Shown: piece after piece, positions 26 to 38,919 of the stretch
Layout: each line of letters begins with the position of its first letter
Position numbering within the stretch: the first letter of the stretch is position 1
NCBI GenBank assembly: GCA_030692375.1
Contig: JAUYCD010000062.1
Location: 1 to 42,448 of the forward strand
Origin: Candidatus Latescibacter sp.
Lineage (GTDB): Bacteria > Latescibacterota > Latescibacteria > Latescibacterales > Latescibacteraceae
Length of the DNA stretch: 42,448 nt
Direction: 5' to 3'
Translations under genes and position numbers: made by a program
Notes under the pieces: generated by a model
The model's input: only the letters and a program-made list of their open reading frames with translations
What the model was told of the DNA's origin: nothing
The model's database searches: none

Positions 26-205
26 CAGCCCCCTTCAATCCACCCCGCACGTACTTCGTACGAGCGGGGACCCCGTGTCCTTTGGACATCCTTCCCCCGG
101 AGGGGGCAGGACACGGCTTCATCGTGCCTGCGAAGCAGCAACGACTGTGGAACAACGCCTTCCCTTGCCCCCTTCTGGGGAAAGGGACCGAGGGATAGGG
201 GGCTG
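26..205. repeat. Nested-palindrome dispersed element
   Basis: The ends are inverted copies of CAGCCCCCT (26-34 and 197-205). Inside are three further stems: 43-54 with 57-69 (12 bp, one mismatch), 73-81 with 108-116 (9 bp), and a C5/G5 stem at 94-98 with 102-106. Positions 113-140 hold a diverged copy, in reverse orientation, of the 28 bp unit found at 5677, 8280 and 38838. An open frame crosses the element (1-198) but has no ribosome site and its peptide is only the translation of the repeat, so I do not call a gene. This is probably a non-autonomous mobile or structured repeat; I know no named family for it. Confidence 0.55.
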
Positions 206-5634: not shown

Positions 5635-5799
5635 AGATCCTGAAACGAGTTCAGGATGACGTCATGCCGAACTTGTTGCCGCTTTGCGGGAACGATAAAA
5701 CCGTTGCCGTTTCACGGGAACGATGAAACCGTTGCCGCTTTGCGGGAACGATAAAACCGTTGCCGCTTTGCGGGAACGATAAAACCGTTTCGGCATCCA
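5635..5799 (+). repeat. Family 3 double-hairpin repeat with four-unit insert
   Basis: Hairpin B (TCCTGAA/TTCAGGA) is followed by hairpin A (ATGCCGAA/TTCGGCAT). The loop of hairpin A is interrupted by the tandem array at 5677-5788. Outside the repeat, ATGAATT (5621-5627) and AATTCAT (5803-5809) are inverted copies; the second overlaps the stop codon of the hydrolase on the - strand. Confidence 0.8.
5677..5788 (+). repeat. Tandem array, 4 x 28 bp
   Basis: Four head-to-tail 28 bp units at 5677-5704, 5705-5732, 5733-5760 and 5761-5788. Units 1, 3 and 4 are identical and unit 2 differs at a few bases. Each unit starts TGCCGC and ends AAAACCGT. The array sits between GAACTTGT and TTCGGC of a family 3 hairpin. 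Single copies occupy the same site at 8280-8307 and, inverted, at 38838-38865. Confidence 0.92.
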
Positions 5800-8235: not shown

Positions 8236-8390
8236 ATAGATCCTGAAACGAGTTCAGGATGACGTCATGCCGAACTTGTTGCCGCTTCGCGGGAACGATA
8301 AAACCGTTTCGGCATCTATTACAATTCATGACGTCATGCCGAATGGGTTCCCTGCTTTTGTATAAAAAAAGTAGGGCATCGGCATCTATT
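8236..8390 (+). repeat. Family 3 repeat, two interrupted hairpin A copies
   Basis: Hairpin B is followed by a hairpin A interrupted by one 28 bp unit (8280-8307), then by a second hairpin A (8335-8386) whose loop is replaced by about 35 bases of different sequence that themselves form a stem (CCCTGCTTTT with AAAAAGTAGGG, 8350-8376). The rest of the 8124-8457 gap is AT-rich and shows no gene. Confidence 0.78.
8280..8307 (+). repeat. Single 28 bp loop-insert unit
   Basis: One copy of the 28 bp unit, one base different from the main unit at 5677 (T to C giving GCTTCGCGG, which completes a CCGC-TTC-GCGG mini-hairpin). It lies between GAACTTGT and TTCGGC of hairpin A. Confidence 0.88.
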
Positions 8391-15510: not shown

Positions 15511-15568
15511 TAGATGCCGAAACAAGTTCGGCATGACACGTGTCATCCTGAACTCGTTTCAGGATCTA
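15511..15568 (+). repeat. Family 3 double-hairpin repeat
   Basis: Intact hairpin A then hairpin B joined by ATGACACGTGTCAT, which is itself a palindrome. TGATCGT (15499-15505) and ACGATCA (15569-15575) form an extra inverted pair just outside. The rest of the 15368-15673 gap, between divergent genes, shows no ORF. Confidence 0.78.
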
Positions 15569-18362: not shown

Positions 18363-18428
18363 TAGATCCTCAAACGAGTTCAGGATGAAGATTACACCGC
18401 GTCATGCCGAACTTGTTTCGGCATCTAT
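18363..18428 (+). repeat. Family 3 double-hairpin repeat
   Basis: Order is hairpin B then hairpin A, with an extra 10-base spacer. It lies in the leader region between the membrane spermidine-synthase-like gene and amrS. Confidence 0.72.
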
Positions 18429-21304: not shown

Positions 21305-21462
21305 GTGACAAAGTGACAAAGTGACAGAGTAATTACAAATGACGATAAATTTATTGGGTTTCTTTTTCAAAATAGATGCCGAAACAAGTTCGGCATGACA
21401 CGTGTCATCCTGAACTTGTTTCAGTATCTATTTTTTACTTTGTCACTTTGTCACTTTGTCAC
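21305..21462. terminator. Convergent inverted repeat around a family 3 repeat
   Basis: A perfect 22 bp inverted repeat built from tandem GTGACAAA nonamer-like units occupies 21305-21326 and 21441-21462. It directly follows the Memo-AMMECR1 stop and includes the stop codon of the opposing gene. The space between contains a family 3 repeat (21373-21430) and a T-rich tract, so the whole can fold as one long stem with inner hairpins and may end transcription from both sides. Confidence 0.55.
21373..21430 (+). repeat. Family 3 double-hairpin repeat
   Basis: Hairpin A then hairpin B with the palindromic ATGACACGTGTCAT linker, identical in layout to the copy at 15511. One arm of hairpin B has a mismatch (CAGTATC). 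Confidence 0.78.
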
Positions 21463-23657
21463 TTTCTTTTAATCAACATCGCCGCTCCGGTCAGGGCGTT
21501 CAATGCGGTCAGGTAAACCAGCATCGGATACATTCCCAGAACGGGGATTATGAGAGAAATAGTGACCAGCGCTCCCACCGCTGCTCCGGTCAGGTCCAGT
21601 CCATACACGATTCCCGGACCGGAATCCCGTGAAATTCCCGTCATTCTGTACAATGCATCGGCAAGTGGGAAAAGCAATCCCCCAAGAAATCCGGCAAGAG
21701 CGGTAAACCCATAGAAGCCTGTTTCAAGGAACATTGTCTCGCGGGTATCCAGAGATAAAAGAATAGCCCATAAGAGAGATAGAGCGGCATTCCCAAGCTG
21801 CAGCACCGCCAGATGGTACACCGAAGCCCTCCCGCTGAGCGCTGTCGAGGTCCCTCTCAGTCCGCCGAGAGCCATTCCCGCCATGTACGAGCCGGTGAGC
21901 AGGGCAATTCTCCCGTAAAGAAAGCCGAATTTCGACTGGTAAGCCAGAATGGCCAGCACCTGGAGAGATATTCCGGTGAAACCGGAAGCAAGCACAGCGA
22001 CAGCGATGCTCCGCCGGGTTGCTGTCCGGCCGGGAATGATATAACTGGCGCCGATAAGCAGGGCGATCACAACCAGAAACAAGGAGAGATAGAAAGGTTT
22101 GGCGATTCGGGCCAAAAAGTGGGTTACGCGTGAAGCGTCAAGGTTCCCCTGCAGGATAGTCCGGTTGAAATAACAGGATGGCCTGGTGTCGGAGTTTATC
22201 GACAGCGACAGAGCCAGGTCGAGCGCGTCCCGGAGGAATCGTACCCGCTCCGGCGACATGGTGTAACGCAGGAAATAATCTCGAACATAGTCGGTTTGGA
22301 TTCCGAGACTTGCCCGGTTAGCGTCCAACTGTTCCCAGGTGAGAGTATCGACCAGCCCCGGAGTGTTGGAAGCGAGAAAGCGGCATTCCAATCCCGGTAG
22401 CACGGTCACGGAAGGAAATGCCTGGGCCAGGGTGGCGCGAATGGAAGCGAGAAAACGGGCCAGGTCCGCCGGAATAAAATCCTCTGCGCCGGTGAGAGAA
22501 AATCCGAAAATCCCCTTCGAGGAAAGATGGGACGCCGCGAGACGGAAAAATTCCTCGGTGTAGTAACGGTTTGCAGTTCCGGACAGCGGCGCCGGCATCG
22601 ACATGATAATGACATCATACATTTCTTTCGTCCGCGCCAGGAACGCTCTACCGTCAGCGGACATCGTTTCCACCCGGGGATCGCCTACCCAGCGCTCACG
22701 GAGGTGCGCAGCCGCCAGTACGAAGAGGCCGGGGTCCAGCTCGATGCAGGTTGCCTTTTCCACCGTTCGATACTTCAGAACCTCATCGATCACTCCGCCG
22801 AGGCCGCCTCCCAGGATCAGGACACGGCGACGTTCAGGTGCGGCGAGCATGGGTACATGGGCGATGTACTCGCTGGTTTCCGGGTCGGGTGCGCTGAACA
22901 GCGTTGCAGCGTCGGAATAAAAAGTGGTCTGCTCCCGGCTTTTGGTCACCCGGATGCGACTATACCTTGTTTCTTTCTGAGCGATGAGCCGCTGGCCCTT
23001 GTAATTGTAGCCTGAAGCTATAGAGGAGAGCCAGATCGCCGGTATGAGAAGAATAAGGGATACTACCGGCAGGATGAGGGCATTACCTTTTAGGAATCGC
23101 GAACCACGGGAAAGGGAAAATAAAGCTGCAAGAATGGGGCAGGCCAGAGTAATTGCATGGTTGGTGAAAATGCTGACCAGAAAAATGCTGAAGATGAATC
23201 CCGCGAATGCAGCCCCGAACGCCTCCCAGGTAAACGCAGTCCCGGCTGTCGGAGATTTTCCCCGTTCGAGCGATTTTGCGCCGAAAACAAACAGGATTCC
23301 GCCCAGGATGTTAAACGGGGCCAGCATAGCCGCTACAGCGAAGCATTGAAGGTCATAGGGCACCAGCTCGCCCGGCGTCAGCTTGAAAAGGAACGGCACA
23401 TTCCCGGTGAGAGCCACTCCCAGGTATCCGAGTACACCGTACAGGGGCAGGAGAGAATGGAACCACCACTCCGGACGGGAAAGCCGTGCGGCAAGGCGTC
23501 CCAGGATGCCGCTCCCGAATGCCGTCCAGATAAGCCAGAAAAGGAGAGCCGCCCCGATGGTCAGCTCGCCTCCCCGGAATGTGGCGAGGACTTCACGGAG
23601 AAACGCCGCCTGGATGGTCATTCCCAGCGCACCGAGGATGAAGAGCGAAAAACGCAT
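21459..23657 (-). CDS. Membrane-embedded spermidine-synthase-like protein 2
   Basis: A 732-residue protein with hydrophobic N-terminal (about 1-230) and C-terminal (about 510-732) membrane blocks and a class I methyltransferase/spermidine synthase domain between them (VLILGGGLGGVIDEVLKY, CIELDPGLF, YDVIIMSMPAPLSGTANRYY, then EEFFRLA). The acidic catalytic residue of spermidine synthase is replaced in the MSMPAP segment. I start at ATG 23657, eight bases after the feoB stop, with AAGG upstream; the frame is open 96 bases further into feoB but those residues are not membrane-like. The spacing makes it the third gene of the iron operon. Substrate unknown. Confidence 0.8.
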   Translation of the reverse strand: MRFSLFILGALGMTIQAAFLREVLATFRGGELTIGAALLFWLIWTAFGSGILGRLAARLSRPEWWFHSLLPLYGVLGYLGVALTGNVPFLFKLTPGELVPYDLQCFAVAAMLAPFNILGGILFVFGAKSLERGKSPTAGTAFTWEAFGAAFAGFIFSIFLVSIFTNHAITLACPILAALFSLSRGSRFLKGNALILPVVSLILLIPAIWLSSIASGYNYKGQRLIAQKETRYSRIRVTKSREQTTFYSDAATLFSAPDPETSEYIAHVPMLAAPERRRVLILGGGLGGVIDEVLKYRTVEKATCIELDPGLFVLAAAHLRERWVGDPRVETMSADGRAFLARTKEMYDVIIMSMPAPLSGTANRYYTEEFFRLAASHLSSKGIFGFSLTGAEDFIPADLARFLASIRATLAQAFPSVTVLPGLECRFLASNTPGLVDTLTWEQLDANRASLGIQTDYVRDYFLRYTMSPERVRFLRDALDLALSLSINSDTRPSCYFNRTILQGNLDASRVTHFLARIAKPFYLSLFLVVIALLIGASYIIPGRTATRRSIAVAVLASGFTGISLQVLAILAYQSKFGFLYGRIALLTGSYMAGMALGGLRGTSTALSGRASVYHLAVLQLGNAALSLLWAILLSLDTRETMFLETGFYGFTALAGFLGGLLFPLADALYRMTGISRDSGPGIVYGLDLTGAAVGALVTISLIIPVLGMYPMLVYLTALNALTGAAMLIKRK

Positions 23658-26370: not shown

Positions 26371-26430
26371 TAGATGCGGCAACGAGTTCAGGATGACACG
26401 TGTCATGCCGAACTCGTTTCGGCATCTATT
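26371..26430 (+). repeat. Family 3 repeat, chimeric hairpins
   Basis: The first half mixes hairpin A and B sequences (GATGCGGCAACGAGTTCAGG) and the second half is a clean hairpin A; the palindromic linker is intact. It lies in the upstream region of the iron operon, where an operator for the DtxR-like protein would be expected, but no classic DtxR box is recognisable. Confidence 0.68.
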
Positions 26431-36056: not shown

Positions 36057-36113
36057 TAGATGCCGAAACAAGTTCGGCATGACGCGGTCACCCTGAACTC
36101 GTTTCAGGGTCTA
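36057..36113 (+). repeat. Family 3 double-hairpin repeat
   Basis: Hairpin A then hairpin B, with GACGCGGTC as the linker. Perfect 12 bp inverted repeats (AAGACTTGTGAA at 36023-36034 and its complement at 36135-36146) surround it, so the whole 36023-36146 region can form a stem with inner hairpins after the secreted-protein gene. Confidence 0.75.
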
Positions 36114-38828: not shown

Positions 38829-38919
38829 GACCCTGAAACGGTTTTATCGTTCCCGCGAAGCGGCAACAAGTTCAGGGTGACACGGTTTCTGGTCATGCCG
38901 AACTTGTTTCGGCATCTAT
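38829..38919 (-). repeat. Family 3 repeat with 28 bp insert, overlapping a CDS end
   Basis: Hairpin B is interrupted by one inverted 28 bp unit at 38838-38865; hairpin A (38893-38918) is intact. The last nine codons of the oxidoreductase gene (IDAETSSA and the stop) are read from hairpin A, so the repeat supplies the protein's C-terminus. Confidence 0.8.
38838..38865 (-). repeat. Single 28 bp loop-insert unit, inverted
   Basis: Reverse complement of the unit at 8280-8307, apparently identical to it. Here it interrupts hairpin B (CCCTGAA/TTCAGGG) instead of hairpin A, but at the same GAACTTGT^TTC point when read on the - strand. Confidence 0.9.

Follow-up and report, generated by a model that had tools for sequence, protein, structure and literature searches.

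At positions 5677-5788 of a 42,448-nucleotide contig from Candidatus Latescibacter sp. (JAUYCD010000062.1; "the window" below means this whole stretch of DNA), a small palindrome is interrupted in its loop by four tandem copies of a 28-bp sequence. The locus raises the question of whether so short a sequence has moved as a unit in its own right, and into what target, or whether its copies have merely been multiplied together with the palindromes that hold them.

The unit and its host hairpins

Six 28-bp units had been described in the window by the first-pass annotation, and their coordinates were all borne out, each unit being flanked by GAACTTGT and TTC. Uninterrupted hairpins carrying the same site in its empty form, which were part of that description, were likewise observed at the locations given in Table 1 and at others. 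The six-unit inventory had missed a diverged copy and a decayed remnant, both of which are included in the table. Tandem Repeats Finder (TRF) reported the array as period 28, with 4.1 copies and 90% matches, and copy 2 is of another subtype (CCGTTTCACGG, ATGAAACC) than copies 1, 3 and 4. Also, an 8-bp tandem repeat, ACTTTGTC (3.6 copies), adjoins a REP dimer at window positions 21437-21465.

Table 1. Units, host hairpins and non-REP sites, with window coordinates or locus handle and position
Location	Strand	Feature
113..140	-	Diverged unit TGCTGCTTCGCAGGCACGATGAAGCCGT, with compensated stem CTGC/GCAG, within another GC-rich repeat
5639..5655	+	Empty A-type REP hairpin CCTGAA-ACGAG-TTCAGG; its partner is the array-filled B hairpin
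5666..5796	+	B-type REP hairpin, arms GCCGAA..TTCGGC, split by the four-unit array
5677..5788	+	Four-unit 28-bp tandem array in B-type REP hairpin (5677-5704, 5705-5732, 5733-5760, 5761-5788); copy 2 of another subtype
8242..8258	+	Empty A-type hairpin; partner of the filled B hairpin at 8280
8280..8307	+	One 28-bp unit within B-type REP hairpin
15517..15563	-	Empty A-B dimer; target site visible in both hairpins
18368..18421	+	Empty A-B dimer (includes empty hairpin 18407-18421)
26376..26392	+	Probable decayed remnant of a filled A hairpin (GCGGCAACGAGTTCAGG), followed by empty B partner
36063..36108	-	Empty A-B dimer
38838..38865	-	One 28-bp unit within A-type REP hairpin (CCCTGAA..TTCAGGG)
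38898..38912	+	Empty B-type hairpin; partner of the filled A hairpin at 38838
L051 12546		Unit at start codon; an overlapping ATG restores the frame
L066 4819		Unit mid-gene, CheW-domain protein
L071 6690		Intergenic unit
L075 7772		Unit upstream of pilT-like gene (gene named from sequence only)
L088 4729		Unit at second codon, secreted FGE-domain protein
L088 10638		Unit at N-terminus of PF09720 antitoxin
L150 16028		Unit at start of secreted protein

The host sequences are head-to-head REP dimers of the form TAGAT-CCTGAA-ACGAG-TTCAGG-ATGAC ... GTCAT-GCCGAA-CTTGT-TTCGGC-ATCTA, the two hairpins of which we designate A and B. Folded as DNA, the empty A hairpin has an 8-bp stem and a loop of 5 nt, and the unit enters exactly at the 5' edge of this loop. 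The host hairpins fit the superfamily of the CGTC-tagged REPs, with which the Rickettsia repeats RPE-4 and RPE-6 are grouped here (PMC3733652): they agree in the stem of about 8 bp starting with AT, the 5-nt loop, the CGTC/TGTC tag and the head-to-head dimers, and the superfamily has intragenic copies and is reported to be without linked transposase genes. The 28-bp unit is distinct from these repeats, being an additional element inside them that carries neither a CGTC or GTAG tag nor long palindromic arms. Whereas a REP is a single palindrome with a terminal GTAG or CGTC tag, a description that fits the host hairpins, the unit consists of two small hairpins and is tagless. Many of the REP dimers form the middle of a larger repeat of MITE-like character, whose inverted ends are ATACATGACGACATA ... 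TATGTCGTCATGTAT (L033, L134, L162 and others), and the flanks of the dimers fall into at least three families.

Taken on the strand that gives its target as GAA^A, the unit reads ACGGTTTYATCGTTCCCGCGAAGCGGCA and contains two mini-hairpins, AACG..CGTT and CCGC..GCGG. At least two forms of the unit (CTGC/GCAG and CCGT/ACGG) have compensatory changes that keep the first of these paired, but its innermost pair is broken in other forms. The second varies in the length of its loop, which is partly missing in a 24-bp unit and longer in a 49-bp unit; the latter form, which carries a 21-bp stretch inside the second mini-hairpin, was seen at 13 loci (for example L059 3177, L101 13070 and L156 2680). In isolation the unit shows no folding advantage over its shuffled versions (z -0.42), and the structural case for the unit is suggestive only.

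Gain of the unit in this lineage at a fixed target motif

The 3.91-Mb genome (273 contigs) holds 325 copies of the unit at up to 3 mismatches with a form that allows both Y variants, and 290 matches to a single form, while the unit read backwards, as a control, gave 0 matches in 3.9 Mb; the abundance is far beyond chance. We found no unit in the 63 other genomes of the phylum that were searched, 0 matches in a 30-base scan of a collection of genome contigs and in two viral scans, and none in viral and plasmid collections, where one Sphingobium plasmid matched the hairpin arms only. A search of Rfam also gave no match. The locus-level counts that follow come from a full reading of 1.74 Mb of the 3.91-Mb genome (44%), in which sliding comparison gave 208 units in 179 arrays. 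These lie in A hairpins, in B hairpins, in a GC-rich repeat (repeat C), in a repeat of the form CTTTGCGAACTTTGCGAGAA and at seven unique loci, and diverged units in a CAGGAC context amount to about 8 copies. The unit sits mostly at the tips of repetitive hairpins, and also inside genes.

A genome of the same family (G002) has 111 empty B hairpins and 0 units, and 0 of its B hairpins carry any insert of 10-40 nt at the unit's insertion point. Since this relative shows the empty state only and the 63 genomes are without the unit, we take the empty hairpin to be ancestral and the unit to be a gain, so that of the two directions allowed by the first-pass annotation, exact insertion or exact loss, the former stands and the latter does not. 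Besides its gain by this lineage, the data show that the unit went into many unrelated places, always with identical ends and at one motif.

The hairpin loop had at first been taken as the target. The exactness of the insertion point was upheld, but the target is GAA^A and not the loop as such, because eight unrelated non-REP sites in the 1.74 Mb carry the unit at that motif (8/8), and five of the eight lie in genes. The eight sites comprise the seven unique loci of Table 1 and the CTTTGCGAACTTTGCGAGAA-form repeat, counted once; at a GAAA frequency of 0.0086 per position, the chance of 8/8 is about 3e-17. Base-exact empty sites come from REP A, REP B and a TTTGCGAGAA repeat only, genic empty states being deduced from homologues or reading frame. 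In the TTTGCGAGAA repeat, which is the repeat of CTTTGCGAACTTTGCGAGAA form, the empty copy at L126 reads TTTGCGAGAA^ACAGTATTTCAAA, with the junction GCGAGAA^ACAGTATTTCAAA, as against TTTGCGAGAA, 28 bp and then ACAGTATTTCAAA at L053; L045 is filled with exactly 28 bp at the same point as L053. REP-derived sites with another left flank, among them L062 1504, L036 1408 and L126 2680, still have the right-hand REP arm and resemble hairpins that have been truncated. REP sites are filled at about 25%, compared with 0.03% of all GAAA sites, a ratio that is inflated by copying and selection.

In repeat C one extra base adjoins the unit, so that not every insertion event was clean. A GC-rich repeat (CCCCCT..TCCCT / CCCCC..GGGGG) was seen in 8 filled copies, at L036, L041, L043, L044, L046, L065, L079 and L082, which probably go back to one common event, since they have one extra base beside the unit in common.

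Within genes, a comparison is provided by the CheW-domain protein of L066, whose homologues in G002 and G003 are without the stretch that holds the nine residues AASGNDKTV. The N-terminal part of this protein (L066 4551-6305, minus strand) also matches a TOTE-type primase domain (PF22548, E 1e-8), so that the fusion is an unusual one. Three units that lie in frame within genes measure 27 bp, a length found in 5 of the 205 other units (Fisher test, 4e-5), and the loop of the CCGC-GAA-GCGG mini-hairpin is altered in a different way in each of the three, which is the pattern expected of frame-keeping selection. Four of the eight unrelated sites are at or near start codons (L051, L088 twice and L150), as is expected from the presence of GAAA in ATGAAA, and the rest are mid-gene or intergenic.

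Spread of the filled sites and rival explanations

We consider it fairly probable that the unit is a 28-bp non-autonomous mobile element of MIRU/REP-like character, which would insert exactly at GAA^A by means of an enzyme acting in trans and would then be multiplied by REP copying and tandem duplication. Two features of the filled sites bear on the later steps. The first is tandem expansion, as claimed in the first-pass annotation: 18 of the 179 arrays hold 2-4 units, so that the arrays themselves are confirmed, but they look like the product of ordinary local duplication, because private mutations are shared within an array (L046, L131 and L047). Arrays that mix subtypes, including the one in the window, either are older or received a unit a second time. 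The second feature is the distribution of units within dimers. Among 131 parsed A-B dimers, 50 were empty, 36 were filled in A, 43 in B and 1 in both, and 1 had another insert; the single doubly filled dimer compares with about 12 expected (Fisher test, 3e-7). Two inverted units in one dimer would form a long, unstable palindrome, which is probably sufficient reason for the rarity of double filling, such dimers probably being removed.

Gene conversion or ectopic recombination between REPs, supplemented by rare microhomology-mediated template switching at other sites, is an alternative that we regard as unlikely. The REP arms would supply the homology; also, the target GAAA matches the sequence that enters the unit in a filled REP (TGAAACGG), and TGAAACGG is found again in the targets at L051 and L075. 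Most of the other non-REP sites, however, share just four or five entry bases with it, and template switching predicts variable exits, whereas all non-REP copies stop at one and the same base, where AA is all that is shared.

It is more unlikely still that one filled REP was duplicated often inside a larger mobile repeat and that the 28-bp unit never moved alone. About half of the dimers do share flanks past the REP, including the MITE-like repeat with ends ATACATGACGACATA, and the unit variants sort by hairpin type, with T in 44 of 48 typed A loops and C in 53 of 68 typed B loops. From this sorting we conclude that many filled REPs are copies and not fresh insertions, and copying or conversion of filled REPs has probably added to the numbers. 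Yet the first-pass annotation had named flanks common to all filled sites as the outcome that would speak for simple duplication, and the flanks are not of that kind: 40 filled dimers have a singleton 5' flank, and filled and empty states are mixed within each flank family (the largest 5' flank cluster has 14 B-filled, 12 empty and 10 A-filled dimers and 1 filled in both), so that duplication of one filled repeat is insufficient. Units in genes and in a non-REP repeat without REP arms contradict it as a complete account, although it is likely to explain part of the copy number.

That the unit is a joined-ends remnant or scar of a larger element targeting REP loops, for example of IS110 type, seems to us very improbable. 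Whole IS elements (ISPpu9, ISPsy8 and others) are known to insert specifically into REPs (PMC1525189), but these, unlike the unit, are complete elements that bring a transposase of their own. The flanks would be compatible with a 2-bp AA target repeat; on the other side, the unit is uniform in size (27-28 bp), no longer, autonomous element with its ends was seen in 1.74 of the 3.91 Mb, and the genome gave no match to an IS110 transposase (PF01548), on which ground the IS110 scar was rejected. Finally, we give hardly any credence to the idea that the unit is the ancestral loop and the empty hairpins exact losses between terminal AAC repeats, for although AAC stands on both sides of the unit in REPs (GAAACGG..GGCAAC), so that slippage could delete it exactly, and a partial remnant exists at window 26376, this account is opposed by the exclusively empty hairpins of the same-family genome, by GAA^AT or GAA^AA sites that have no second AAC, and by the CheW homologues without the stretch.

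Candidate enzymes and comparison with known systems

For the mobile-element reading that we prefer, a putative enzyme supplied in trans would cut the target behind GAA and the end of the unit behind GCAA; the latter resembles the target GAA. Movement would most plausibly proceed on single-stranded DNA, as judged from the two mini-hairpins in the unit and from the favoured target at the 5' edge of REP loops, and REP hairpins can fold out of DNA that becomes single-stranded as it is replicated. Following the initial insertions, filled REPs probably spread among REPs by copying or gene conversion as well, and the arrays of 2-4 units would have arisen mainly by ordinary tandem duplication. A bolder proposal, which we offer tentatively and with more doubt than belief, is that an enzyme system mobilizes a structured single strand of 28 nt, by itself a complete transposable unit, into GAA^A, with REP loops preferred, which would place the unit among the smallest transposons.

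The first-pass annotation had proposed a search for a RAYT/TnpA_REP-type gene, and no RAYT was found in the genome (a draft, 97% complete), where the single Y1_Tnp is a 160-aa protein of IS200 type that is not flanked by units. This TnpA and the lone reverse transcriptase of the UG19 class are candidate enzymes by their presence alone. The reverse transcriptase (699 aa; L217 235-2334, minus strand), whose best PADLOC match is RT_UG19 (E 1e-141), is a candidate defence RT. The IS200/IS605-type TnpA element (L049 3078-3640) and five short relatives (L142 33, L152 3291, L038 128, L116 15784 and L157 5067) have ends AATGAA..GAGATTAAA, unlike those of the unit, and carry two CCCCGCCGCAAGCAGCGGGG-like hairpins, forming a small PATE-like family. 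These elements begin ATGAA^A, and a target shared between the TnpA and the unit was entertained and rejected, since alignment places ATGAA within the element's own end. A CRISPR origin, suggested by a faint likeness to a type I-E repeat, was also rejected, as Cas1 was not found in the genome and the arrays run head to tail without spacers.

IS200/IS605 elements and the non-autonomous PATEs have subterminal hairpins and insert in a fixed orientation 3' of a short fixed motif, with little or no target duplication. The unit is like them in each of these respects, with GAA^A at 8/8 non-REP sites, REP A and REP B and at most an ambiguous AA as target duplication, but it has no ends in common with a TnpA-bearing element, and the PATEs known to us are all far longer. 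By analogy, an HUH transposase is a possible mover: both the hairpins of the unit and its preference for hairpin loops are what a system of that kind, working on single strands, would show. MITEs, with terminal inverted repeats, target duplication and lengths of 70-300 bp, differ from this 28-bp sequence, the ends of which (ACGG..GGCA) are not inverted. The GTAG-14 REPs of Bradyrhizobium have loops enlarged by up to 27 bp that are self-complementary and have GCGG/CCGC ends (PMC3733652), but in the excerpted account these are loop variants of one REP family, with no reported pairs of empty and filled sites outside REPs, whereas the unit has such a pair.

In the open-access literature we found no report of a unit below 30 bp with empty and filled sites both in and outside REPs, and the sequence described here looks like one of the shortest that is mobile. 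REPs, RPEs and MIRUs are thought to be mobile, but individual events have seldom left direct traces. Here the movement of sequences below 30 bp is directly testable, because the genome offers empty and filled sites that are exact to the base, one fixed target, subfamilies that differ in age and genic variants that keep the frame, and because there is a relative with empty sites only.

MIRUs, for which we know of no transposase, are by analogy the known repeats that work most like the unit, although we do not claim membership for it. They are mycobacterial repeats of 53 and 77 bp (PMC4213456) which, in the part of PMC12548453 that cites Supply 1997, are described as short, apparently mobile, placed at start codons with survival of the gene, and tandem. 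Tandem arrays of 2-4 copies are a property of the unit as well; it differs from the longer MIRUs in its 28-bp length, its GAA^A target, its two mini-hairpins and its location mostly in REP loops, and it presents a nested case, in which the loops of one tiny element have been colonised by another.
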